Assembly: GCA_036244855.1 (NCBI GenBank)
Contig: BQKZ01001333.1
Span: forward strand, 13,749 to 77,748
From: Temnopleurus reevesii
Lineage: Eukaryota > Echinodermata > Echinoidea > Temnopleuroida > Temnopleuridae
Reading direction: 5' to 3'
DNA: 64,000 nucleotides
Positions 4,773 to 43,399 of the stretch are shown here, piece by piece. How positions within the stretch are numbered: the first letter of the stretch is position 1; each line of letters starts with the position of its first letter. Position numbers and translations under genes: made by a program. Below the pieces are notes generated by a model. That model made no database searches. It was not told the origin of the DNA and saw only the letters and a list, made by a program, of their open reading frames with translations.

Positions 4773-4883
4773 AAATATGAGAAAAAGAATTTATCTGTGG
4801 AATTCATAAATGGCACAGCTCTGATTGAGGATGTGGCCCAGAAATGGCAGGGGATTCTCCAAAAGAAGATGACTGCAGTCAGG
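4773..4883 (+). CDS. CACNA2D: Alpha2delta exon 1 of window (VWA_N segment)
   Basis: 37 codons, phase 0 at both ends, between acceptor ttccccttacag and donor gtatgt. The peptide begins KYEKKNLSVEF and ends QKKMTAVR. I align it to the alpha2delta-1 stretch that begins K-Y-Q-D and ends K-A-L-V-R, roughly residues 60-100, in the helical VWA_N region before the first Cache domain. It contains one N-glycosylation sequon (N-G-T). Upstream exons are outside the window. Confidence 0.88.
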
Positions 4884-6913: not shown

Positions 6914-6973
6914 AAAATTGTGGATAAACTGGAGGCAGAATTTGCCAATTATACTGCCAATCATAATATTGAA
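6914..6973 (+). CDS. CACNA2D: Alpha2delta exon 2 (VWA_N segment)
   Basis: 20 codons, phase 0/0, acceptor ttcatgcag and donor gtaagt. The peptide KIVDKLEAEFANYTANHNIE continues the amphipathic helix that runs A-L-E-A-E-K-V-Q-A in alpha2delta-1. It carries the sequon N-Y-T. Confidence 0.85.
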
Positions 6974-7403: not shown

Positions 7404-7533
7404 ATTGAGGATGTTGATTACAAGAACTCCAAGAATCTAACGGATCTTCCCCTGACATACGATGAACGCTTAAAGTCTGATGTCAATCTCAACTGTAGCT
7501 CAGTTCAGATCCCTACAGACATCTATGAAGGAG
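7404..7533 (+). CDS. CACNA2D: Alpha2delta exon 3 (start of first Cache domain)
   Basis: 43 codons plus one base, donor gttagt. It encodes IEDVDYKNSKNL at the start and SSVQIPTDIYEG at the end. The latter matches the family motif A-V-H-I-P-T-D-I-Y-E-G, one of the strongest anchors of the N-terminal part. It ends in phase 1, which the next exon accepts. Confidence 0.92.
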
Positions 7534-9881: not shown

Positions 9882-10013
9882 ATAAGGTTATCTTGAATGG
9901 TATCCAAGCCACTGAAGGTGTTGATAGTGTTTTTCTTAGTAACTTTGAAGAGGATCCTCAACTTCTCTGGCAGTATTTTGGAAGTGCTGATGGGTTCTAT
10001 CGATCGTACCCTG
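9882..10013 (+). CDS. CACNA2D: Alpha2delta exon 4 (first Cache domain, upstream of the cassette array)
   Basis: Acceptor ctcctacacag, donor gtaagt, phase 1 in and phase 1 out. It encodes 44 residues ending DPQLLWQYFGSADGFYRSYP, a near match to the family motif D-P-x-L-x-W-Q-x-F-G-S-A-x-G. All five cassettes 5a-5e have the correct phase to splice to this exon. Confidence 0.95.
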
Positions 10014-10021
10014 GTAAGTAA

Positions 10022-10460
10022 CCTCCTCTCCCCATGTAGTACATGACCTCAGTGTCCTCTATCGCTTCCATCTCATCCTTGTCTATCTGTACTTCCTCGT
10101 TTTCTTTTCATTTTCCTAATCTCCTTTTCCTACGTCTTCCCGTCATTATCTTTTTTTCTCATCTCCTTCCTCTTCAACCTGTACCTAAACTTTATCCTCT
10201 GTTTCATCCACCTCATCCTCTTCATCTTCCTTTTCCTCTTCCTCTTCCTGTCCCTCTCCCTCCGTCTCCCTCTCCCTCTCCATCTCACTTCTGCCTATTA
10301 CTCTCCCTTTTCCTCTTCATCTTCCACTCACTCTCCCTCTTCCTCTTCCTCCTCCTCCTCCTCCTCCATCCCCTCAGGTTCCTCTTCCCATCCCTTCTGT
10401 TCCTGTACTCATCTTCCTCATTCTCCTTCATCAAAACCACCACATCGCCCTCCTCCCATC
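10022..10460 (+). repeat. Polypyrimidine (CCTCTT-like) tract
   Basis: More than 400 bases of almost uninterrupted C/T made of CTC, CTT and CCTCTT units. It starts within about 10 bases of the exon 4 donor, at the mouth of the alternative-exon array. The open frames across it are low-complexity artefacts rich in Pro, Leu, Ser and Phe, or Arg and Glu on the other strand. Confidence 0.85.
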
Positions 10461-12873
10461 CTCTTATTCCTCTCTGTACTCTTGATTCTTCTGATAACAA
10501 TAAATATGTATAAGATTTGTGCCTAGTAAACATTCCCCAGATTACAGAAATTGTTATTAGATTTGTGTGATAAATTGGATTATGAATTGCAATGAAACTT
10601 TAAAAAATATAATGAATCTTCAAAACATTTTCAATAAAGACTGTAAATGACTTCTAGTAAGTTTTATTGTATTACTTTTTATCCATATGGGTCCAAGCTA
10701 CATATTTTGTGTACTAGTTATTTTATTTGTGAAACCAATTTGATATCCAACACACCAATTTTAAAGTAGCCTTATATCATCGCCATTCAAATGTCGCAGT
10801 TTCTTCCTTCAAAGTTTAAGCATGTATATGTGTACTTAGTGTAATGTTAAGTTCATGTACTATTTATCGATTTACATGTACTCAGAACATAGGAATACAT
10901 GTCTTCTTTGTTTTTCATCTCTTCTTGCAGTGGGTATGGGTAGGTATCTAGAAGGATTTTTGTAATAAAAGAAAAGGGTAAATTATTTGAACAGGATAAT
11001 GCCTGGGGCAAAAAATGCATGAAAATGTATTCAATTAAGGGAGCTGTTTCTCTCCAACTTTGAATTCTTAAGATACACTTGCTAGCTTTATGGAATACTG
11101 TTTGTCTTTGTCTAGTCTACAGACATTTTAAAGAAGTATAAAACTAGGTAAGTAATGTTTTATACAGCTAACAGCATCAGGTTTCTGATTCACTGATATC
11201 ACAGCGAAGTGATCTGATTTTGACACCACATTTTTGAAACGCTATTTTTATTTTGTTTTTGCATTTTGATTGCATTTCAATTGCATTTCAAAAGCCATCA
11301 GTTTCAGACTGCAAACAAACGACATTTGTACAATTAATGCATTTTAACATTCACTAGTGTGTTACTAAACATATCGCACATTTCCTGGCAAATTGATAAC
11401 ATAAAAGGATAGAAATTTGCTTTCAATCATATGATCTGTTCAGAGATGATTTATGTATTTTCCCAATTTTTTTAATACTCAATATATGCTTGTTGGGAGA
11501 AATAGATTTAGACATACTAAAGTATATTGATTGACAACATGTAGTAATATGCAAGGATGAAATAATGAGTTAAAGCTTAAAAATATGGAGCATAATGTCA
11601 GATTTAATAGTCAATTGTCTTTCTTCATCAATTGGGCTGTAGTTTTAGATTATCAAAGGAGAGTAATATGTGCATGATAAGTACTGCTCAAAGTATACTT
11701 GACTTTACAATTAAAACGTTACAAAAGTTAGCTGTGCATTAGTGATTAAGTATCAAGGCGGTGAAAAACAAATGCCCTGTGCTTGAAAAAGGCTGGGTAT
11801 ATTTTATATCTTGAAAATGGATCTAAGGGGCCTTGTCTGTCTGTAATCATTGGTGTACTTTATGTGCACAATACAAAAGAACAAAATTGTTTGGTTGTCC
11901 TCACAGCATTAAAAAGATCTTGGAGTAATTCTATGAAATGATTATATTGTGGTATATATGCAGTAAAAATGAATTTAGAATGCAAAGCAATGCCCAAGAA
12001 ACATTGTAACATGACTTTCAGTGTACATGTAAATTGTACCTTACCAATCTGTATGACTGATCTTTTTATCTTGGTGTGAATGAAAAGAAAAAAGAAGCTC
12101 GGGGGAGTGTTTCATCAAGATTTGTTGCAGCGACAAGGAGTCATTTTCCGACAGCTCCCATAGCAACTGTCAGCGAAAGTGCTTTTCATACAATCACAAT
12201 CAAGGAATTTGTCAGCGCTGACTAATTGTCTCTGCGACAAATCTTGATGAAACACCCCCCAGGTTTCATTATTTTTATGGAATATGTCGATGGAAGTCAA
12301 CCAAAGAAATGTTGGTTTTTGTTTAAAGTAATCAGACAAGCAAATTATTTAACACTTCTATTGAATCTATTTCCCACTCCAATTCCCCAATAATGTGTTT
12401 ATATATATATATACATATGCATACTGTACTCCTTGGTAAAATACGAATTTAATTTAGAAAATTCAGGTTTTTGATTGGACAGAAATGGTTTGTGCATTGC
12501 ATGAGCATTATGGTAAAATGGCTGGATTTATTCAGAAAATCAATTTATAATAAGCATTGTACATAGACTAGTAGAAATTGATCAAGGATTCTTTTTTATT
12601 CTATAACCTTCGCATTGTTTTGATTGATATTTTTATTTACTGTACTTTTTGTGTGTCAAGTACATTACTTCAGCTTTTGTTTCAATCATCGATGATTCCT
12701 TTACTATATCGATGGACTAGCATACAAAGTGTACATACGTGTGTATGCGTGTGTTTACGTATATGTATGTGTGATGTATTTTAGACAGAGAAGCTAAATT
12801 CATAATTTTGATTCATAAAGTAAGATATTTCAAGAGTTCTAAAAAGATGAGCATCATTTAATTATACCTGCAG
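10461..12873 (+). other. Intron between exon 4 and cassette 5a, distal part
   Basis: AT-rich intron holding one MITE (12101-12260) and a short AT repeat near 12400. I looked for further cassettes ending in R-x-R-K-W with a donor and found none. Confidence 0.6.
12101..12260. mobile_element. MITE with GGGGGAGTGTTTCATCAAG ends
   Basis: The left end 12101-12125 and right end 12237-12260 are inverted repeats of about 24 bp (GTGTTTCATCAAGATTTGT against ACAAATCTTGATGAAACAC). The 160-bp interior is also partly self-complementary. It is a non-coding foldback-type element. Confidence 0.75.
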
Positions 12874-12919
12874 CTGGCCCAGATATTGGTGGACGTTTTG
12901 ATACTCGGTTGAGAAAATG
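12874..12919 (+). CDS. CACNA2D: Alternative cassette exon 5a
   Basis: 46 nt between acceptor attatacctgcag and donor gtaaaa; phase 1 in, phase 2 out. With flanking bases it reads AGPDIGGRFDTRLRKW, followed in exon 6 by YIQAT. It replaces the alpha2delta-1 segment ending Y-D-V-R-R-R-P-W. Arg and Trp of the Cache ligand motif are kept, and the motif Tyr is Phe. It is the shortest of the five, lacking three to six residues before the motif. No transcript evidence is available here; support is from splice sites, phase and homology to its sisters. Confidence 0.85.
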
Positions 12920-15005
12920 GTAAAATTATTTTTTGACCATCTCCATCATAGCTTTCATGGTTTGTTGCATGTATTTCTATCTCCCATTTGGTGATCCATT
13001 TAAATCATGTGCTAACACTTTATAATACATGTACATGTCTATGGTCTACTGTCTATCCAGATTTGTTTCTTTTATAGAGACAGACCATAAGTTCATCCAT
13101 AAATCTGTGAGATTCATTAATGTAATAGGTCATAAGATGTCATTGCATTTGCTTTACCTTTTTATTCAACTTTAAGATTGAAGACATGCTTTGCATCGCC
13201 GATTTTAGAAGAAGACATGAAACTATTGGAATCAGATGCAAAGACAATTGTTCAGGATGAAAACAAATGTAATATACTGTAAAAGTTTTTTTTTCAATTG
13301 ATGAGATAATCTTTATATTTAACTTTAATAGATCTTTCCATCAATTTTTTTTAGTATCAAAAGAACCATTCAAATTTGAGTTGTTATCTAACCATGGCAT
13401 TTATTTCTGGCAAAATGTTTTGTTTCAACCCTTTTACCAGTGCATACATTATTTCATCTTTGTTCTTAATCAGACTTTGGGTTTTGAGCATTGATTCCTA
13501 TTTTGGGAATTTTAAACTATAGCAGTGTAATCCGTCAAACCTAAAGTGTTTTTTAAACTATGGATTTAAACATACATACCTCATTCAAAAAGAACAATTT
13601 CCTTTGTTCTATTACACTATCACCTTGGTTAGACATTGTAGTTTTTGTACAAGCCCCAAAATATTTTTGAAGGTTTACGAGGTATATTTCTGTTTACTAA
13701 ATATTCAAATATGTTGTTTTTACCTGCAAATCAACCTCCAAATTGTATTACACATACATGTACATATCTATTTTTATAGTTTCCAACCACAATGAAATAG
13801 TTGAATCACCGTTTGTCATTGCAAGAAATTTTTAAAATGGGCTTTTGGCCATATCGCACATTGTTAGAAGACAGGAGCAATGGACCTGCTTTTCATATTT
13901 TCAGGTTGAAAGTGCTTTCATGATATGGGCTTTCATATTCAATCTCTAGTAATGCACCTGTATTAGCTTATGTCATTTTGATATCAATCAGGTTAATTTG
14001 TATTGGAGTGTTACACTGTATTGTATGTAGAAAGTAAAGGAATTTTACATCCACAGTGTACATCGGCATTGGATAGATATTGACATTTCCAAGCCAGTTC
14101 CTTGTAGTGTTTGATATTAATACTGTAGATAAAATATTATAATCTGTTTACTATTAATTTACAATAAAAAATCAGTGGAAGAAATATGTAAGTACAATGA
14201 TCCATTTGGCTATGCAAGCATGATTGATATGGTACTCAAGCCTAAGGGATCCCATACTTTAACACTTCTTCCACTGAAGTGTTGAATGAGAAGTGTCTAA
14301 TACGTGTAGTATTAACTCATGTGTGAAATTGATAATCAGTTTGGGTTTGTTATGCACTGAGAGTGTTATGTCATGCTAACACACATAAAGATAGGTTACT
14401 GCAAGGAAGCTCCTTGGTTACTGTAATGATGAATTCAATTGTGTAGTGCATTTAGGCATAACTTTCTGATTTTTGTATGTACATTCTGCAAATTTTTATT
14501 TCACTCCAATTCTTAGTACAATCCATGTTTAATACAAAGTAAATGTGTACCACATGACCTATATGTACTCTGTTCATTTGTCCCTTTCCAATTCTTTGTG
14601 TAACCTTTGTGTATATTGTATTGTACATGGACTGTACATGTAAATGTACTGTATTTTGTACATTTGTATCAGTTACAATTCCTTACATGGGTTAGCCAAA
14701 TACGCCTTGGTGATTGAATACATTATGGTTTGAAAATTTTGTTATGTTACCTGATTGGAAAAAACATTTGCATGTAAACAAATGGCAAATCGCATTTACG
14801 TGTAGCCAATACATGCCCTTATTGGTGTATGCGTTTTATAACTTTGGTACGCACTGCAATTCAATGACGCTATTGTAACGTATGCAAGAACTTTCCATAA
14901 TGCCTCGAGACCAATGGCATGAACCAAACCAGATAAACCCACGAAAGATCATGGTATTTCATTCAAATGGCCCATATTACATGTACATAACAGAACTGAT
15001 GATGA

Positions 15006-15137
15006 CATACCAAACTTTCCACCTTCAGAATTTGGAATGCTATTTTGGAGGAGGTAGTAGATCCCTCAACTTCGTTTTGAAATATGATCTCCCTCAATAG
15101 CATTACAAAGTTTTTAGGTGGGACATTTGGTAATGTT
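15006..15137. repeat. Foldback hairpin element
   Basis: The left arm starting CATACCAAACTTTCCACC pairs imperfectly with the right arm ending GGTGGGACATTTGGTAATG. Both share AATGCTATT and a GA-rich end around a loop of about 28 bp. Two overlapping open frames here are by-products of the inverted repeat. Confidence 0.6.
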
Positions 15138-15597
15138 CTCTCCATTGCCAGTCATCATCTATCTACTATGAATTGTTACTGTATTCTGAGTACCTCCTAA
15201 ATCCATACTTTGTGATTACTGTATTTTCGTCCTTACTTTGCATTTTTGCACCTTCCAATTTCTTTCTACTGTTGTGTAATGCATCTGTTCCACTTCCAAT
15301 GTATCGCATACAGTGTATCGTGTTCATTTGTACCTTTCCAATTCCACTGCACTCTTTGTGTTTGATACTGAATATTTCAATACATTATGCACATTCCAAT
15401 TCAATATTCTGCTGTTGTACCCTCTCAGTCCTCTATCCTCAATGTAGACTTTCTTGAAAAAATATCAGAATTGAAATATTCCTATATTCCAATGCCATTT
15501 TATCAATTACCAGTATTGTTTACAAACATACAAAATTCATTTATATGGGGAAATCGCAGCCCTTTTATTTCTCAAATTTTCATGTTATTATATTATA

Positions 15598-15912
15598 AAG
15601 CTGTAATAGTGCGGGAAATTTTTTTTTCAAGCTTGAATGTTATAGACAATTCTAAAAGGGTAAAATGGGGTAGATTCTATCAAATGTACATTTGTTTTAA
15701 GTGCAAAAGAGAATTTATGAAAAAATTATGAAATAAAAAAGTTGTAAATTTTATGACTGTCAAATACATGTAGTGCTGTAAAATGATTTTTCAACCTTGA
15801 ATATTACAGAGAAAATGGAAAATTTTGGTTATTTAGGTTGTTTGTATCAAATGTGCATTCATTTTAAGTGCAAAAATAAGTATGAAAAAAAAGTATTAAA
15901 TAAAGAAAAAGA
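15598..15912 (+). repeat. Diverged direct repeat, two units of about 140 bp
   Basis: Units near 15598-15738 and 15774-15912 share the order TTTTTCAA, CTTGAATGTTA or CTTGAATATTA, ATCAAATGT, CATTTTAAGTGCAAAA or near variants, and an A-rich end. It looks like an old local duplication. Confidence 0.55.
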
Positions 15913-16657
15913 TAATCAAGCTTTCTCCATATTGTGGCAAACTAGATTTTCCATTTTGGCGTTGGTCCTTGAATGATTACATTCTGAAATATATGTCTGT
16001 TTTTTTGTTAATTCTCTTGGTAGGAGTGAAAGTAAAAGAGAAGTTTTTATTTGATGTGTACCCTAAATTCTCCCTCACCCTTCATGTATGTCCAGTCTCA
16101 AACCATGTTTGTCCTCTGATAGTTCTCTAAAATGTATAATCAGTTTTTAATGATGTTCATAATGTGAGAGTGATTTGCAAGTGCATTGTTTTATAAGCAT
16201 CTTAAAAGGGAGTCTTTTTATTGCATAGTTTTTCAGTACAGATGTCTTTTGCCCTTTAAACCAAGCATACTGCATCTAAGATTCTATAATAGTGCATGGT
16301 AACTTCAATTAGATTGTTGATTGATTTTAACAACAGACCATCACTTAAAGATATGAAATGACATCCAGGAAAAATAAGTATTAATCTTCAGAGTATGAGT
16401 TTCAGTAAGATTGATAATTGATAAGGGAGATGTTATTTTTTTAATTATATGTTGATATTTCTTTCTTAAAGTTGTGTAAATTCCAGATATGCTCAGATAT
16501 ACAAGCCTCATGAAGAACGGATTAATTTTTATTTGTAAAGCACTTCAAATGGGGAAAAGAAATGTAAATTTCAAATTGTTGATCTTTGTAACAGTGAGTG
16601 TTTTTAGTTGTCAGCATGTATCATGATGAAATACAATGTATTTTGAACTCCCTTCAG

Positions 16658-16712
16658 CCATAGAACTGGAATTGGGACCTGCAGATTTCTATGATATTCG
16701 CACTAGAAAATG
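16658..16712 (+). CDS. CACNA2D: Alternative cassette exon 5b
   Basis: 55 nt, acceptor actcccttcag, donor gtaatg; phase 1 in, phase 2 out. It reads AIELELGPADFYDIRTRKW. The Cache ligand signature Y-D-x-R-x-R-x-W is intact, with Thr in place of the middle Arg of the alpha2delta-1 R-R-R motif. Apart from 5e it is the cassette most like vertebrate sequence. Confidence 0.88.
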
Positions 16713-18712
16713 GTAATGGTTGGCATTTCATGTTCTGATTCTACATCAGAAGAACCTACAGAATTAACCCTAATACTTCTTAACATTTTCTTTAGAACTC
16801 TCCTGAGTGATGATTATTTAGGGGGAATCTACTAGATTTAGTGATAACAAGGGCTTTGGAAAGCATGAATACTCATAGTTTATTAAAGCCTCAGTTAAAA
16901 TAATTAATGGTTTTCCCATCTGTAAATATTAGTAAAGGTAAATGACGTCTACACTTGTAGAACCATGTCATGTATGAGGTGAGCTCATTAATTTTACATA
17001 GTTTTGATATGAAATATGGTGTAACAATATTACCCATTAGTTCAATCAAATGAGGACCAGTGTCACTCGGAAATAATATTTTCACTATGATATTAGAATA
17101 TAATGAGAATCAATTCTTCATAAAATTATTTGTCTGGTCGCAAGAATTACAGATATTTTATACAGATTACCATGTCACTTTCAAATGTGAAATGCGAAGA
17201 GACTACGAATTTGGGTTGTAATATGTGTGTATTAATCTCCTCAACCTGACACCCTCTGTTTCCCTACCCTTTAACAATGTTTGATATTGCATGTAACACT
17301 GCATGAGTATAACACTGAATCTCAATCTAAATACCCATGCTAGCATGAGAAAGCCCACCATTTCTAATGCGTGTCACATCAAATACATATAAATCTGTCA
17401 ACACCTCAAAACAATTTATAGATTATTAATAATTTGAAGGCAAGAATCAATGTTCCATCTGGTCATGAAGGTCTCAGAAAAAAAGAAATATACTTGGTGA
17501 ATGATCAATTTTAAAATATGACGAAATTTTGTCATTCTTATATAGACGTTTTCCATTCATAGGGTACCTAAGGCCCTTAAAACAATTCCATAGATGCTAT
17601 ACATAAGATCAGCTCTCCGAAAAGATCCACAACATTCCATTGTTGTAAACTTTAGAATATTGAATTCATGCAACATACTTTTTTTTATTTTAAAAGACAA
17701 CTAACTGGTAAAAAGTTAAGCTCTCCGGGTGAAGCAATGCACGCAATAGAATGCACACATGTTTAAAAAGAAGATTCACATGGAACAGAACTTTGACTTC
17801 AATTCTGCACATCAATCTTGAACAAAATATTTTACATATATCTGCATGCTCTAAGTCCTAATATTGGGAATTTTTACCAAACCTGTGGAGAGAAGTAATT
17901 TGGAGAAAATTTTATTAATTTTGCAGAACACAAATTATATTCTTTCATCTCAAGTACCGGAGGTATCAGTCATTTCCATTGTATCAAAACATGTATGCTG
18001 GACAGAGAAAGTGGTCACAAATGATGAATTCCCGATTTAAGCCTTACCAATGGCTTTGTTAGACAAAGACATTTTCCCTTTTTTTCTTCAAGCAGATTAA
18101 TATGCACATGAATAACAGGAAGGATAAGTATGTAATCTGCTAGGCTTGTTATAAACGATTGAATGGGCATTGTCAATTTTGTGTCCTCTAGCTACCATAT
18201 AGTTATACTATACACGTTGCTGGTCACACTTGATGGTTTCAACTTCCCAAAATGAAATTGTTATCTGCAGTTATTTTCCAATCAACTTGTTCACACAGAT
18301 GGATGATCAAGTAATTCATACTAGTTAACTCCATGGGATATTGGTTTTCTACTGTATGCAAGTCATGTAGTTGTTGAACCTGAGCCTGATAATAGGGAAT
18401 TAAGAAATACTTGGGTCAAAATATTTATCTAAGATAATGTAAAATGTAAATAAATTCATGTTACCTATGAAATAACCAGAAATATTGATGTTGATAGTGA
18501 ATGGGGTGATAGGTTTGACTTTGATAATCTTAAAACTTGTTTTCATTATTCAAAGGATCAATTGTAGTTTCAATGAAATACAAAAGTCTGATGTTGTGAG
18601 GATTTTCTCAGCTTTGTATTGTCTAGTTTGCTCCTTGTAATATTTGTGCACAAACCATTATTCTTGTTGTGCACAGACCATTTTTATATCAATTATATTG
18701 AATTTATTCTAG
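16713..18712 (+). other. Intron between cassettes 5b and 5c
   Basis: 2.0 kb of AT-rich sequence in which I see no recognisable repeat family or exon. Confidence 0.6.
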
Positions 18713-18767
18713 TTGTTCCTGTTGTTGAACCAGATGATTATACAGAAGATCCTCGATTTAGGAAGTG
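18713..18767 (+). CDS. CACNA2D: Alternative cassette exon 5c
   Basis: 55 nt, acceptor tttattctag, donor gtaaaa; phase 1 in, phase 2 out. It reads VVPVVEPDDYTEDPRFRKW. This is the most divergent version: the residue aligned with the motif Tyr is Glu, giving E-D-P-R-F-R-K-W, while the last Arg and Trp remain. It is acidic overall. Confidence 0.87.
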
Positions 18768-20329
18768 GTAAAAAATGAACAATCCTTCTTTTTACTCTGC
18801 ATATGAGAGCCAATTATTTCCTTGCGTAAAATATTCTTGCCCTTCCTGTTTTGGGATTAAAAAGAAAGACCAAGTATATACATTTTCTTTTTGTCTAGTA
18901 CGTACTTCAGGAATATCTTTGCTTTATCAGTGCTTCATACCATAAACATTGCATTCGGAGAGGCACCGGCAAATTTTCAATGCAGCTATTACATGTATAA
19001 CATCAGTATTTGCATCAGATTAAATACCGTATGTACAAATATACATAATTCATTTTCATTCTTAAAATCTTCTTTTAGGCCCTATTACAGGTGCATAGCC
19101 AGGATTGCGCTTGAATGGGGGACAAACTCGTTTTTACTGAGGTGCCCTTTTCCGTCCCTCTGTTTCTCTATGCCTATTTTTTCAACTTTTTATGTTTTTG
19201 CACATTTTCTCTACAATGGGCACCTGCCTCCTCCGCCATCCCCTGGCTATGCGCCTGTATTTACTTATATTTTTTGCAGCAGCAATCTGATGACTTTGCC
19301 ATTAACCAATAGTTTTCTGCATTTAACATTTTCTCCATCTCCTTAATATATGTCAATAAATACATGTATCATTCAAAGGCATCATGGCAATGTATTAGCT
19401 TAAATAATCGTTTGGATTGTGTTTTCCCATTGTATATGACAATAGGTGCTAATGTGTAAAATTGGTAATCTTTTTTTTTCTTTAAAGGATCAGTTAATTT
19501 ATAGATTGACGGACAAACCTTCCAAGTTTTAATTCTACTATGTTCGTGAAGAATATCTACAACACTGAATGAAAATCCTGAATTTCATTTAAAGCTGATA
19601 TAAGAAATATGGAAATGGTTACATTTTTATAGCATCTCCATTTACATCACCAAGATTGGCATTTAGTATTTTATGATGATTTTTTTATGAATGTCTCAAC
19701 ATTCTAGAATGAATTAAGTGTTGAAATTAGATCTCAGATCGCTTTATGCCCAAAAACCTTTCCTATGTTTTGTAAAATAAGTTTTTCTTCATAAAAGATG
19801 GTAATGAATATAAATATGAAGTGCCTTCAAAATAGCAGCCATTAGTGATACAAAAATTATTTTTAAGCAAGGAACAGGAGAGAGATAATCAGATGGTTTA
19901 CAAAAGTAGAGATGCCAGGCACTCCGTAACATGCAGTAGGTTAAAATTGAAAAAATGCAACAGCTGATCAAAAGTCAGAGAAAATAATTACCATACTCAT
20001 AGCTATTCACTTGCACCGAAAACCTCAAATTGTTATGGAATGTTCTAGATTGTTGTTCCAGAACAGTTGACATCTCTGTAAAAGGGGTTCTGTATGAATG
20101 GTTACAGCTTTCATCTGGGATATTTGAAAATGATTTTTGAGATATTAACAGACTTTTATATTTTTCCTATACTTCTAGAGCAAATTCCAAATATCTATGA
20201 TAATTTTCTTTCTATGGGTGTTTACAGAAAAAAAATTCCTACCAGTAATGCAATGAAATTATGCTCGTAGAAATAATGATAGTTTAGTGCCTTTTAACTG
20301 CATGATAATAACACATTTTCTTCTCCTAG
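18768..20329 (+). other. Intron between cassettes 5c and 5d
   Basis: 1.6 kb. One C/T-rich open frame near 18891-19346 has no splice support or protein-like composition. Confidence 0.6.
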
Positions 20330-20384
20330 CCCGGACTTATGTTGAAGATGTAACAGCACCTTTTGCTGCTCGAACTAGAAAATG
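20330..20384 (+). CDS. CACNA2D: Alternative cassette exon 5d
   Basis: 55 nt, acceptor cattttcttctcctag, donor gtatga; phase 1 in, phase 2 out. It reads ARTYVEDVTAPFAARTRKW. The motif Tyr-Asp is replaced by Phe-Ala; Arg and Trp are kept. The strong pyrimidine tract suggests a functional acceptor. Confidence 0.88.
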
Positions 20385-22166
20385 GTATGACAAAGCAGAC
20401 AAATTGCTTTGTAACTTTCTTTTCTTCCTTGAGACGAGCCGGGGCTTGAACTTACACCACCCAGTAGCACAATATTGGTGATTTTTTAAATTGACAATTG
20501 AGCTGAACCTGCAACTTACCTGAATATCCGCTTAATTCAGCACAAAAACTAATTTGCCTCACTCCCTAATATTTAAAATTGAATGGATTTAATCTGACTG
20601 TTATGCTGATGTGATTGGTGTGAATAGGTTTTTATCGTTTGTTTCCTAATATTTGACACTCTTTTTTTCTCCTCCACATTGGGTAATTTCAAGGTCATAA
20701 GTAAAAAGGATGGCTTGCACATTTAAATCACACATGAATCATCTCTTTTGACATGTGACCTGAAATTTTCTATTGTGGGTGATAACAAAAAGTTTTGAAT
20801 GAGAGACATCAAAACACATTTTTGTAAATATTAAATATTTAGGTTTGAGAATTATGGCATTTTAAAGCAAATATTTTTTCCAGTTGCTTTAGTCACACAT
20901 GATACAAAGAAACAGAAACTGGAACAATCTTAACAAACTTTATGCATGTATGATTTCGTTTTGAACGGATATAGGCAATGTGTCGTGTGACTATTCTCCA
21001 GACAACCGGTACTGTAGGTTAGAGAGGGAAAAATTGTATTTGTTAACAGATATTACTTGTAAATAAATCTAAGTGAACAAAGTAAAAGATTATCCGAAGT
21101 ATGGAACTTACAGCAAATCTATGAACAAATTCTGGTATCTAATGGTGTTGTGGTTAAAGTGTGTATGCTCATGTAAACAATTTAACAAACCTGGGAGTAA
21201 TTTGTACATGGAATATAAATTGAAAGTCGTTTCTTTTGAATGTAGACAATATGTCATGACATATCGGTAAGCTATGTGTACATACATACATGCGTATAGA
21301 CGTACATGCAACAATAGTGTACACTAATTTGCAGCAAAAAGGAACTAATATACATGTAATTATGTTTTGCAAATGAAGGGTACTAAATTCTGCAGGTTGA
21401 TAACTCGTTAGTTACATGAAGACTTCACGTCTCTTCATTTTGTTGTGATATAACACATTTGTTAATGCAGGAGCTGACATTCTCATATCTAATATGAAAA
21501 AATAATGTTGCTGATTGTAATATAACATTGCTTGTAAAATAACATTTCATCCTCCCATTATTAAATTAATATGTACTAACCAAAAGCATATAGATTTTCA
21601 GCATCCGTATAGCATAAAATGGTATATTTCATTTGCGAGCATTTTGCTAACCTTCCAAATATACCCTGCATTGCTTAATGAATGATGAAACCTTCACAAT
21701 GTTTTAATTCATTTAATTTTCTATCCAATTGAAATCAAAATTGTCACTAAATCTGAGTAACTATCCACACAGTCAATAAATAGATAATAAGAATTACATT
21801 TATGTCAAATATTCCTTTTGATTGATAGATTATTGTTCACAGTTTCTGATCCATTATTTTGACAATAATATTGAAAATTTGTATTAATGGAATTTTACTC
21901 CAAGCATCAAAGTCACATAAATCTACAGATTTGAATGGGAAAGATAATTTATCATTTTCACTGTTCATTAATGATGAACCTGTTGTCTTTGAACTGAAAA
22001 TCATTTGCTGTAAACAATAACGTAAACTAGCGACCCATAGATATAACTTACTTCTGCTTGTCGTCTAATACATGTTCCTAGCTACTAGCTTCCTTTCTCA
22101 TTAACTTTTTATGTACCCCTGTGGTTGACTAACATCCCTAGTCTCCTTCACCATTCCATCTTTCAG
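20385..22166 (+). other. Intron between cassettes 5d and 5e
   Basis: 1.8 kb of AT-rich sequence with no supported exon or repeat family. Confidence 0.6.
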
Positions 22167-22230
22167 CTAAAGAATGGGTTTCTGCAGGGGATCCTGATAA
22201 AGACCAATATGATGTTCGGCGTAGGGGCTG
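22167..22230 (+). CDS. CACNA2D: Alternative cassette exon 5e (canonical-like)
   Basis: 64 nt, acceptor ttccatctttcag, donor gtaagt; phase 1 in, phase 2 out. The peptide starts AKEWVSAGDPD and ends DQYDVRRRGW. It carries the full R-R-R motif preceded by Y-D-V, identical to alpha2delta-1 at those positions, and an early W that matches the vertebrate S-P-W. It is probably the version closest to the ancestral exon. Confidence 0.93.
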
Positions 22231-24114
22231 GTAAGTGAGGCTATTAACATAAAGTGATGCTGCTTCATGACTGCAATACATCAATATGATTTTTATATAG
22301 ATTTTATCATATACATCTATCAACTGAAGATATGTGTAAAACACATGTTTCGAGATTTTCTTTTCATTTGATGAGCTGAATGTGAAGCCTTCCATTTGTC
22401 CCACACTTTTTTTTTTCATTCCTGCAGTAAATTTATGAAAGAATCACGCACAAAAAAATTAACTCAAGTCTGTCTTGTTCATAAATATGCATGGGTCGAG
22501 TCTTGGCAGGATAATAACCGTTTTTGTAAGGGGAGGGGGTGGGGGTGGTTCAACATTTAATTTGCTGATATCACAACCACCACTCCAAAAGTTGAACTCT
22601 GCATTTTGGATGCTATTTGGCAATTCTTTGAGTCAGGGACCGGGGTTTCTTTTAACCAAGCGGATCTTGTGCTGGAACCAACCCCCTGATACACATGCCA
22701 ACAGGGGATCAAAGACCATTTGTCATTCCTTGAATTAAAATGGATTATCTATGTGAATAGGTGGGTTTACACATAGATGCAAATTATATGAATACCTCTA
22801 ACACATCGATTGTTCTCGACAACTCTAAAACTTGCCAGACATAGCAACAAGTAACGTATGCGAACTTCATTCTAAGTATTGTAGTCTTCTTGTTATCAAC
22901 AAGTTTAAGGAATACCATGTGACAATATTCATTGGCAAGAAACGCACATAAATTTGAATATATTGGTAAACCCGCCTATTGAAAAAAATTACAGCAAATT
23001 GAAAGGGCACAAGAGCAGAAGCAAAAACATATTTGAGACAAAATCCAGGTTCTGTTTGTGTCTTACTGTCAAGCAATTTTTGGGACAAATTTCACTTCCA
23101 TAGTCTCAAGTGATTACGGTACAATCATTCGCTTTTATTTCATTTAATATCTTTTTCCAATTTTATAATGATTTTCTGTAAAACATGCAATATAGAATTA
23201 GTGCAATAATGCTGACTGATTATTCTCTATTACCTGCTCATTATCACAAATACTATGTTCATTAATATGTTCATCAGTCTGCTTTCTAAAACATTGATGA
23301 TATGGGGTAATCAATTAATCTTGATGGTTCAGGTACATGTATGATAATTTGATTACTCCAATCAATGCCAAGCTTATTGTTTTTGTCCTGGATTTTTTTT
23401 TTACATTTCATTTCATTTTGTTTTCAGTTTTCTTTGCAAATATTTGTTTTATTACCATTGCTTTACATTTTTGTCAGTTTTTTGTTGAATGATCATCATA
23501 TTCATACATTTTAAGCACAGTGCATGCATGCAATTGTCTATTAACCTTCAAGATCTTTCTTAATACTAATTTTGTTTTATATATACTTAACTATTCTAAC
23601 CAACTTCATCTGAATTAACTAAAGATTATATGTTCCTTAGAAACCACACACTACGTAATGTATTATTGCCTTGATTATGTGTATATAAGGTGTAAGGATA
23701 TTTCATGGGCACTTTATAACAATATGAATATTTATATAGCGCCGGTATCCGCAGAAAACACAGACAACTTTATATGTTATAAAAAGATCTATATTTATCA
23801 CATCATATTTTATACTCAATTAAGGATTTCCAATTACTTTCAGTTAAATATGTTGTGATGGAATTATTGCTGCACACTATACTGTACCCTTTTTTTTCAA
23901 ATGAAAGTATTTAAGTACATACTGTAGCAATATTTTTTCTGATATGTTTTTAATTAAAATTAATTAAAATGAAAAAGTTGATGAAACTGTAAAGAAGAAA
24001 AAGATGCATGACCAAATTGTGATTCCAAACATGATTGAAAATATAAATGGTTAAGCAATATAGCTATGTCTTTGTTGCAAATTGATAATCATGAACTTTA
24101 TCCTTTATTTCTAG
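22231..24114 (+). other. Intron between cassette 5e and exon 6
   Basis: 1.9 kb containing MITE copy 3 (22756-22980), a G-rich patch near 22530 and AT-rich sequence. No sixth cassette was found. Confidence 0.6.
22756..22980 (+). mobile_element. MITE copy 3 (AATAGGCGGG family)
   Basis: It begins AATAGGTGGGTTTAC and ends GGTAAACCCGCCTATT, with the same interior order as the copy at 8700-8928 (ATAGCAACAAGTAA, ATTGTAGTCTT, GCACATAAATTTGAATAT). It is more diverged than copies 1 and 2 are from each other, so the family has been active more than once. Confidence 0.8.
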
Positions 24115-24165
24115 GTATATCCAGGCTACCAGCTCTCCAAAAGATGTTATGATTCTCATTGATGC
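24115..24165 (+). CDS. CACNA2D: Alpha2delta exon 6 (start of VWA domain)
   Basis: Acceptor tttatttctag, donor gtgagt; phase 2 in. It completes the cassette Trp codon and reads YIQATSSPKDVMILID, matching Y-I-Q-G-A-A-S-P-K-D-M-L-I-L-V-D. The final Asp is the first MIDAS aspartate. All five cassettes join here in frame. Confidence 0.96.
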
Positions 24166-32645: not shown

Positions 32646-33260
32646 TCCTTCTGTTAGACTAGAAATCTATATTGATTATAGGTACTTTCCAAGTTGTCAT
32701 TTTTAGTGTCGTTTTCTGCATAATTTTTCACTTTGTATAGCACTTTATGATCAATCTTGGCCCCCAGCATCCAGTCCTAAAACAGACAACCATTCAATGT
32801 TTGGAACAAGAATTTGAATAGATTAATCTATATTTGCCTATTGAAGCCCTTGTGATTGAGTGGAATACTGCATTAGTTTACACAAGAATAGAATGTAGTA
32901 ACTGAGACCCCGGTTAGACAGAACGGGCTAGCCCATGCTGGGCCAGGTATGGGCCGGCCCATGGGCGGGCCCGTTTGCCCCCGGTTACACAGCTAGACCA
33001 GGGTCAGCTCTNCTTCTGTTAGACTAGAAATCTTTATTGATTATAGGTACTTTCCAAGTTGTCATTTTATAAGTGTTGTTTTCTGCATAATTTTTCACTT
33101 TGTTGAGCACTTTATGATCTTGTTTTCCAGCATCTAGTATTGAAAAAGACAACCATTCACCAGTGGGTGTAAGAAATAGAATAAATGAATCCTTAATCGC
33201 TCACTGAGGTCCTTGTGATTGAGTGGATTACTGTGTTTGTATCACAAGAATAGTATGTAG
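32646..33260 (+). repeat. Direct repeat of about 250 bp flanking a GC-rich insert with an N
   Basis: Units 32646-32901 and 33013-33260 share long blocks such as CTTCTGTTAGACTAGAAATC and TTTCTGCATAATTTTTCACT. They are separated by a 107-bp GC-rich piece rich in GGGCCCG-like words, which ends at the only ambiguous base of the window (33012). It may be a real duplication with an inserted element, or two haplotypes joined in assembly. Confidence 0.85.
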
Positions 33261-41000: not shown

Positions 41001-43399
41001 CTCTCTCATCCTTCTCTTTCCATCTCAAATTTCTTCCTTTTAGTGTTGGTGATAACTTAACAGGAAGTGATCGAATCCATTCTTGAGGTAGCACAAACCA
41101 AACCCTCCTCTCTCAAGTTCCCATTTGCAGGGATACTATATCCTTGCGTGAGAGGGAGAGTTGAGGTTTTATATCATTACACTCAGAGCTGTATTCATAT
41201 GAATTTGCTACCTGTGTCATATCTATCTCCTATACTCTCATCATCATGTCTGTGTTTGTTTTTTTGCATCTTATTTACTCTCTGTCGTTGTGTTCCAGGG
41301 TTGACTGGTATGGAATGTATGGATTGTTTTCACACTAAGACCAATTTTGCCTGACACTCCACTAGATGATTATCCATTTCCCATCTCCACTTTTATACAT
41401 TTTACTTTTATAACCATAGTTGCTGGAATGATGCCATAAGATTATGAGCAGACATTTTCAATTCCTCAATGCATGTGCAAGATATAATTTGAAAATTCTC
41501 TTATAGTAAAATATGAGCGCAACATTGCACACAAGTACAGTTGTAAAAGCTTTTGAAGAGTTACTTTGCCAGTATTATTTATACTTAGTATGGAATCCAT
41601 GCATTTGCATGAGTTAATTTTGCCTGATTTTTTTTGCAATTATGCTCTTGTCTGGATTGACTTGACATTCCATCTATTGAGCTGATATCAAATGATATGT
41701 AAATTCACCCGAAAGGATTTTAACATGCATAGATTTTTATCCTGAAGTTAGATCAGTAAAGTAAAGGAAATGCAAGAAAATATGATTGAAATTTACATTT
41801 TTATAGATATATTTGATTTAGGAATAAGATTGAACAATATCCTATTAATTTTGTATCTATTGGGACTTACCTATTCACAACTCATCTAAAATGAGATTTT
41901 CCAATAGAATAGTCTTGTAGGGAGCTTGTTTTCTAAAATAATTAAATTCTTCAAATACCCATAATTTCACAATCCATATTGCATCCGAAAAGTAAAACAG
42001 AACATGGTTATCTTCATCTAGTGAAATACAGGAAATAGTTTTTTTTTCTTCTAATATTGTGTAAAAATCACTCCGCTATTAACATCGTTTTAGCGTTGTT
42101 TGATGGTATGCAGCCATTTCCTTGAGACTATGTGATAAATATGAATATGTATATATATATATTATTTTGATAACTAACATTAATCACTGCAATAACCCTT
42201 CAATATTTTGACATTCTCTTTGACTTGTGGTCTAGTCCTTTTTATCCTTATAAACTATTTGTTTATATATGATCCTTATCAGTTCCATCTCTTAGCACTT
42301 CTGGCAAATTCACAGGAAAACCAAGCAATTTTAAATAAAATTTGATTGAAATACAACCAATATATTACAGGTAAACTCTGAGGTATACATACTGTATGTT
42401 AAATCAAGCGTTTTTGTAAAAGATTCAGTAATTTATTGATCATATCAGTTTTAAACTTTCATATGAGCATATGACCTATCAATTTACTTCAACTTACAAA
42501 ATTAAGTGCAATATGGCTATACTTGATTGAAATTATAATTAAAAGCATCATAAGCATTAATTATGTGGAAGATGACCGAATTGTGCATAGTTCTTTTTAT
42601 TAGTAAAGAGAGAGCGAGAGATAGGAAAATGGGGAAGGAGGGAAAAAGAAAGAGATAGAGAAGGAGGATGGGAGAGAGAGAGTGATAAGGCAAGCGATAT
42701 GGATGGGAGGGGGGGGGGGTTATGCGACAGTTCTTTTCTTCCGTACATTGCACAAGTCAACCCTGCTAAAGGGCTACCCAAGTTTGATATCAAAGAAAAC
42801 TTCTTGAAGAAAGTAAAATAATGTGAATTAAAATTTCAGGTGAATTAAATTTTCAGGAATATTGTTCAGATACAGACACAATAAGATTAAAAAATCAATC
42901 AACTATTGAGGCCAAGGAGAGCCATTTAAATATTATAACTTACTTTTAAGCTCTGCACAAGTTCCCTCAAAGGAAAACTATTTGTGCTCTACTTTATTGC
43001 TTTCTTTTGATACTGTCTGCTAAAAATAACTTGGTATCGAATTGTGGGTTCCCCTTTCAGAAATCTTGGAAGGCTTTTCCGTTTTCTATTTCATTTATCA
43101 ATTTTTGCTCTTCAAAAGAATTTCAATCTATAATTTCTCCACAAGGAGTGGAGACATAAATCTGATTTCTAAATTCACATTGCTGCAGGTAGATTAGTTT
43201 GATTTCATCCTGCGATAATCCACAATTATATTTTTGTTTTAATCTATCATTTTATCATCAAAACATGGCTGTTGTGATTTCATTTAAGAATGAAAAGTTT
43301 TGTTTCACAGAGTTGTTTCATGATGATCCACCCTGCATTTTTGATTAATTTTAACCATCTTTTTGTTTCATTGGATTCCCCCTGTGTAACCCCTTACCT

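Follow-up and report, generated by a model that had tools for sequence, protein, structure and literature searches.

A stretch of 64,000 nucleotides (nt) of the echinoid Temnopleurus reevesii (contig BQKZ01001333.1, positions 13,749 to 77,748; hereafter the window, in whose coordinates all positions are given) was analysed and shown to carry, in DNA with 33% GC, most of one CACNA2D (alpha2delta) gene. One intron of this gene holds five short exons, here called cassettes, which in all likelihood arose by tandem duplication and form an array of five mutually exclusive exons. Sequence comparison places the segment that they encode in the first dCache domain, where it forms the first half of the amino-acid/gabapentinoid-binding motif, a point which was absent from the original prediction made from the sequence alone.

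The cassettes are located on the forward strand in a 14.1-kb intron (10014-24114), with 1.6-3.7 kb between neighbours, a spacing at which steric interference is unlikely. Cassette 1 (12874-12919, 46 nt, AGPDIGGRFDTRLRKW) ends at the donor ATG/GTAAAA, cassette 2 (16658-16712, 55 nt, AIELELGPADFYDIRTRKW) at ATG/GTAATG, cassette 3 (18713-18767, 55 nt, VVPVVEPDDYTEDPRFRKW) at GTG/GTAAAA and cassette 4 (20330-20384, 55 nt, ARTYVEDVTAPFAARTRKW) at ATG/GTATGA, all with a U1 match of 5/9; for cassette 3 further possible acceptors are present at 18677 and 18734. Cassette 5 (22167-22230, 64 nt, AKEWVSAGDPDKDQYDVRRRGW), the canonical one, has the donor CTG/GTAAGT with a match of 8/9. The 20 other modelled donors scored 5-8, three of them at 5, and compared with these the chance of all four alternative cassettes having such weak donors is about 0.003. 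All five cassettes are entered in phase 1 and left in phase 2, and the coordinates, lengths, splice dinucleotides, phases and peptides of the original prediction were all verified. Its shared peptide ending, R-x-R-K-W or R-R-R-G-W, was recovered as R-x-R-[KG]-W in 5/5 cassettes.

The features by which mutually exclusive clusters are recognized, namely adjacent exons of similar length with shared entry and exit phase and mutual homology, are all present. Pairwise identity between the cassettes is 20-28/46 nt and homology is weak outside the last 15 nt. Because the cassettes differ so strongly outside these 15 nt, the duplications look old. A blastn comparison of the 500-nt flanks gave short matches only, the best of 20 nt with an E-value of 0.003, and a repeat finder run without the gene model grouped 4/5 cassettes as one direct-repeat family (D4). 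All cassettes keep their frame, phase and splice sites despite the low identity, which old neutral copies would not do.

The single use of a cassette is written into the reading frame. Exon 4 (9882-10013, forward strand), a constitutive exon encoding ..DKVILNGIQATEGVDSVFLSNFEEDPQLLWQYFGSADGFYRSYP whose peptide is identical at 44/44 positions to Lytechinus P0002, exits in phase 1, and the next constitutive exon (24115-24165, forward strand), which supplies the final base of the motif Trp codon followed by YIQATSSPKDVMILID at the start of the VWA domain, needs phase 2. As each cassette has a length of 1 mod 3, a full protein therefore needs exactly one cassette; with none, two, three or five cassettes the frame is broken and with four it is restored. 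When all 32 cassette subsets were spliced in silico, 5 were open, all of them singletons, and 27 met a stop. The 26 subsets with at least two cassettes, including the five with four cassettes, stop inside the array, and skipping all cassettes leads to a stop in exon 24115-24165. Mutually exclusive protein output is thus built into the frame, whatever the spliceosome does. The original prediction that one cassette is chosen per transcript gains from this a frame that is open for singletons only, while exclusive use itself is still inferred. An array with single inclusion is regarded as highly probable, and it is likely that several of the alternative cassettes are truly used in the animal.

The first dCache_1 domain of the mammalian protein has a motif, split by the VWA domain, for the binding of amino acids and gabapentinoids, and the third Arg of RRR contacts the ligand while the first two point away (PMC9901441). 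The motif is printed as YxxxRxWY in that paper, though Y236 and R241 lie five apart. Residues described as important for mirogabalin in the human protein are Y236, R241, W243, Y450, D452, T461, D491, W205, V207, Y217, W223 and L454 (PMC11308618). Mutation of the motif Arg is reported to impair both trafficking and the enhancement of channel function, and the site has been reported to contain leucine (PMC12303104). Mapping by eye, using alignments and the numbering of the structure chains, indicated that the cassette encodes the equivalents of W223, Y236 and R241 and two bases of the W243 codon, which are 4/12 of the residues named for mirogabalin (PMC11308618).

The equivalents of the Arg at 241 and the Trp at 243 are kept in 5/5 cassettes, and the residues around them vary. 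The upstream Trp equivalent to W223 is found in cassette 5 only, cassettes 1-4 being without an internal Trp and having a loop that is 3-6 residues shorter. At the position of Y236, cassettes 1 to 5 carry F, Y, E, F and Y, respectively, so that the complete motif is formed with cassettes 5 and 2 and the first Tyr is replaced in cassettes 1, 3 and 4, with the rest of the motif conserved. In the exons common to all isoforms, the urchin retains W205, Y450, D452, L454, T461 and D491, as judged by eye from the alignment. AlphaFold models of P0002 (Lytechinus, cassette-1 type) and P0001 (S. purpuratus, canonical) both fold overall, with a mean predicted local distance difference test score (pLDDT) of 79.7 and 78.6, respectively. 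A structure search, which was run on the P0002 model only, returned eleven alpha2delta-1 chains with template modelling (TM) scores by target of 0.83-0.87, including gabapentin and mirogabalin complexes, and a twelfth chain, 3jbr, with a TM score of 0.52.

Relatives of the cassettes were looked for in a homolog set of 203 proteins, which includes the best 120 of 822 from one search (7994 candidates scored). Cassette 5 is ordinary animal sequence (YDVRRRGW), identical at 20/22 residues to S. purpuratus and at 21/22 to Diadema, and its segment is carried by the database isoforms X4 and X2 of these two, respectively. Lytechinus database isoform X5 (P0002) has AGPDISGLYDARLRKW at the cassette site, 12/16 identical to cassette 1, and the alignment score of 70 between the two was reached by 0/500 body shuffles. 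Resting on this much higher score (70 vs 33 or less), the P0002 segment is likely the ortholog of cassette 1. The isoforms of all three genera are database models.

Divergent segments at the cassette site were also identified in other ambulacrarians, which the original prediction had not mentioned: in the sea cucumber Apostichopus (P0008 and P0009, ATEEGGTTLLPYNRQW), the crinoid Antedon (P0012, GSRHEKRNKYGVDVLDRRKQSW) and the hemichordate Ptychodera (P0017, AYVNSDTRVDTFDHRTRTW). The Ptychodera protein is 64% and 60% identical to proteins of Glandiceps and Saccoglossus, respectively, both with the canonical segment. In the shuffle test the sea-cucumber and crinoid segments could not be significantly assigned to individual cassettes, and the Ptychodera segment, which scored equally against cassettes 2 and 5 and had one low shuffle value, to the canonical cassette 5 (0.004), is likewise unassigned. 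For each of the sea-cucumber, crinoid and hemichordate segments, divergence of a single exon instead of splicing is possible.

The segment pattern matched 167/203 listed homologs, and the 36 non-matching proteins were left out. Trp is the fourth residue of the segment in 154/167; among the 13 others, eight short open reading frames (P0165-P0172) have a Trp later in the segment, and the five without Trp throughout (P0002, P0008, P0009, P0012 and P0017) are all ambulacrarian. A second pattern applied to 79 homologs matched 61, of which 59 have R-x-R-x-W, the two exceptions being P0196 and P0199 (116 amino acids, DFRTSSW). The motif Arg is missing in these two and in Haliotis P0088 (YDVRRQSW), all of which retain the upstream Trp, and in Antedon P0012 (GSRHEKRNKYGVDVLDRRKQSW) Gln stands at the place of the ligand-binding Arg. 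Departures from the motif Arg are thus present also outside Ambulacraria or in proteins of unspecified origin, yet there the upstream Trp is kept.

Short exons are easily imitated, and AG..GT pairs in an AT-rich intron might mimic them by chance. For the intron 10014-24114, a scan for open AG..GT exons ending in W and with a length of 1 mod 3 yielded 7 acceptor/donor pairs, all ending in R-x-W and located on exactly the 5 cassette donors. A laxer scan gave 9 pairs, still on only those 5 donors, and a sixth cassette was found in this intron at neither the used nor the laxer thresholds. The thresholds were chosen after the cassette scores were known, such that all five pass, and controls were run at identical thresholds; for this reason the evidential weight rests on the controls. 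At the stricter thresholds, the forward strand of 24200-63900 (39.7 kb) contained 4 W-ending exons and the reverse strand (63.8 kb) contained 3, but none of these ended in R-x-W. In 200 first-order Markov resamplings of the intron the mean was 0.575 W-ending and 0.005 R-x-W exons (maximum 1), with 0 R-x-R-x-W. With these empty R-x-W controls and a likely cassette 1 ortholog in another species, a chance origin of the whole cassette set is refuted and keeps next to no probability.

If the array is real, there are several possibilities for what it does. Only some of the cassettes might be live, with 1 and 5 used and one or more of 2-4 being decaying or unused duplicates. Among the retrieved proteins clear relatives were found for cassettes 1 and 5 only, and the donors of cassettes 1-4 are weak, but the donor of cassette 1 is equally weak and this cassette has a likely ortholog in a Lytechinus protein. 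Moreover, despite their divergence elsewhere, cassettes 2-4 retain R-x-R-K-W, an open frame, their phase and both splice sites, and little can be concluded from their absence in a collection clustered at 90%, which makes partial use of the array unlikely. It is far less probable still that cassettes 1-4 serve unproductive splicing, in which frame-breaking combinations would lower CACNA2D levels: although 27/27 non-single subsets stop, every single inclusion is open, stop-free coding with a conserved motif is unexpected in poison exons, and a full-length Lytechinus database protein holds a cassette-1 segment.

Tuning of the ligand pocket is slightly favoured as the main role of cassette choice. 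Alternatively, the segment could mainly alter the fold near the VWA/channel interface, the rate of folding or maturation, or binding of another extracellular partner. The segment stands directly before the VWA domain, which contacts the channel (PMC12303104), the motif Arg and Trp are kept in all five cassettes, and with a Tyr at the rabbit Ala217 position the choice of ligands may already be narrow in the urchin. However, the changes hit W223 and Y236, both named for mirogabalin (PMC11308618), and in mammalian alpha2delta a mutation of the motif Arg is enough to impair function (PMC12303104); a role apart from the ligand is considered a tentative, somewhat doubtful explanation. If pocket tuning applies, cassette choice would determine whether the pocket holds a small ligand and which one, and the state of the pocket would in turn govern subunit maturation, trafficking or channel boosting. 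With its five cassettes, the animal is probably able to make one and the same protein with differing pockets. It is conceivable, though rather unlikely, that in Ambulacraria one CACNA2D gene provides a splice-coded set of amino-acid/amine receptors with pockets of differing specificity; if true, nearby cells could adjust the delivery of calcium channels to different small molecules outside the cell. A Gln is described as the closest structural equivalent of the ligand Arg in the bacterial amine receptor PacA (PMC10104139), and by analogy the Gln of Antedon would be consistent with a change of ligand from amino acids to amines.

A number of observations weigh against an array of mutually exclusive exons that tune the pocket. 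In the alignment, judged by eye, human V207 is replaced by Tyr, Y217 by Ser and rabbit Ala217 by Tyr in the urchin. A Phe at the Ala217 position is the stated reason why alpha2delta-3 and -4 do not bind gabapentinoids (PMC9901441). Because this position is Tyr, bulky ligands such as gabapentin should be disfavoured in all isoforms, and the urchin protein may be without gabapentin binding in any isoform. The swapped segment is of low confidence in both models (block pLDDT 56 and 72 in P0002; 70, 48 and 56 in P0001), and therefore pocket geometry is not comparable between them. Shuffle values of AGPDISGLYDARLRKW were low also against cassettes 2, 4 and 5 (0.022, 0.040 and 0.022, respectively), at scores of 33 or less. 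In a protein collection whose clustering at 90% hides isoforms, no other species was seen to carry cassettes 2-4, and a homolog search directed at short echinoid fragments gave none with these cassettes. The 27 stopping subsets represent only about five independent events and are thus weak evidence of selection. For the best docking-like candidate of the intron, at 12484, the weakest of four predicted pairings was -16.0, slightly beyond the -15.6 of the best of 6 shuffles, and a second docking/selector test gave -16.1, within the shuffle range of -15.4 to -19.2; selectors were sought within 350 nt of the cassettes. Finally, none of the splicing-factor motifs counted within 200 nt of the cassettes was clearly enriched in a simple comparison of observed and expected counts.

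These counts were 2 for TGCATG (about 1.9 expected; one lies 47 nt downstream of cassette 1, the other 31 nt upstream of cassette 4), 3 for CELF-like motifs (1.3 expected, two overlapping), 2 for PTB-like (1.4 expected), 2 for QKI-like (0.7 expected) and 6 for MBNL-like motifs (2.8 expected, four at cassette 5). Since a near-consensus donor and an animal-wide sequence are found in cassette 5 only, this cassette would be the default choice. Cassettes 1-4, with their weak donors, would probably need cell-type activators, and mis-spliced combinations, which meet a stop, would presumably be removed by nonsense-mediated decay. Shortly after the exon 4 donor, about 400 nt (10047-10480) are strongly pyrimidine-rich and could be bound by a PTB-like regulator. 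A 42-nt inverted repeat, 88% complementary and with 75 nt between its arms, precedes cassette 1 (12102-12260) and looks like a small element of the miniature inverted-repeat transposable element (MITE) type.

Within the same family, tissue-specific splicing of regions A, B and C of vertebrate CACNA2D1/2 varies the dCache domains, and the alpha2delta form without region C has a lower gabapentin affinity (PMC9901441). As described there, region B is an alternative acceptor and the other two are optional cassettes; all lie away from the R241-W243 motif, and a mutually exclusive array is not among them. Exons 15a and 15b of NALCN are similar in that they are mutually exclusive duplicates which swap the selectivity filter and occur in echinoderms and hemichordates (PMC3557258), but these are two alternatives in a pore-forming subunit, whereas urchin CACNA2D has five in a ligand-binding extracellular subunit. 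Mutually exclusive exons are known from the same channel complexes as tandem duplicates in the CaV alpha1 genes (CACNA1A-E and Drosophila cacophony; PMC9741552), whereas the urchin array lies in an alpha2delta gene. More than two tandem alternatives with one used per transcript are likewise found in Dscam (PMC5740500) and in muscle myosin heavy chain (PMC3912159), and human mutually exclusive clusters of three to ten exons have been reported (PMC5740500). Docking/selector pairing is known in some large clusters (PMC6071210); in the urchin array it was not established, and the single choice is encoded by the frame.

Neither of two surveys (PMC9741552 and, for human, PMC5740500) contains the string 'CACNA2D' in its main text. 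Among the matches listed from the open-licence literature, by their titles and the starts of their abstracts, no report of mutually exclusive exons in an alpha2delta gene was found, in line with the earlier remark that no five-member array is known at this position. The type of cluster is known; new is its presence in a gene family without found precedent, aimed at a ligand-binding motif. The alpha2delta amino-acid pocket is targeted by gabapentin and pregabalin, yet its role is still open, and the array offers a natural mutagenesis series of five pocket walls in an otherwise identical protein, in which the key Arg is kept and its surroundings are replaced. If the variants of sea cucumber, crinoid and acorn worm belong to the same system, it would be as old as Ambulacraria and has seemingly been overlooked.

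The assignment to an alpha2delta gene was borne out by protein comparisons. When the joined window peptides were searched against the PDB, the best solved relative was human CACNA2D1 (E-value 2e-106 over 403 residues), and residues 83-1087 of Lytechinus CACNA2D are covered, with gaps, by exons of the window. Among the homologs listed, S. purpuratus P0001 is the nearest (90% over 407 residues), followed by Lytechinus P0002 (85%) and Diadema P0003 (80%). A domain scan, run on the homologs P0001, P0002 and P0017, detected VWA_N, VWA and VGCC_alpha2 domains, and P0001 and P0002 are matched by the window exons.

The splice-bounded exon chain begins at 4773 and runs to 62674, interrupted by three phase breaks at places where exons are absent from the model, and was carried on to 63346 by tblastn with the Lytechinus protein; the first and last coding exons lie outside the gene model and the chain is incomplete. 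Upstream of exon 4, three further exons of the same gene are located on the forward strand: 4773-4883, from the exon chain and a Lytechinus match; 6914-6973, phase 0 to 0, with its end set by hand; and 7404-7533, in the VWA_N region, from a Lytechinus match and in-silico splicing. The remaining downstream exons (24564-63346, forward strand) encode the VWA domain, the rest of the dCache domains and the VGCC_alpha2 region, and most of them match Lytechinus CACNA2D. No Rfam family reached its gathering score in a scan of the window, and a tRNA search of the window gave none.

Two minor features were observed further downstream. An optional microexon of 24 nt (41064-41087, EVIESILE), flanked by AG and GT, has a homolog, ELIESILE, in Lytechinus P0002 which is missing from the S. 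purpuratus P0001 isoform X4; by its position it resembles the vertebrate A/B splice region. A local duplication of 81% identity comprises 32648-32898 and 33013-33260. The one N of the window, at 33012, directly precedes the second copy; either a tandem duplication or an assembly join may account for the pair.

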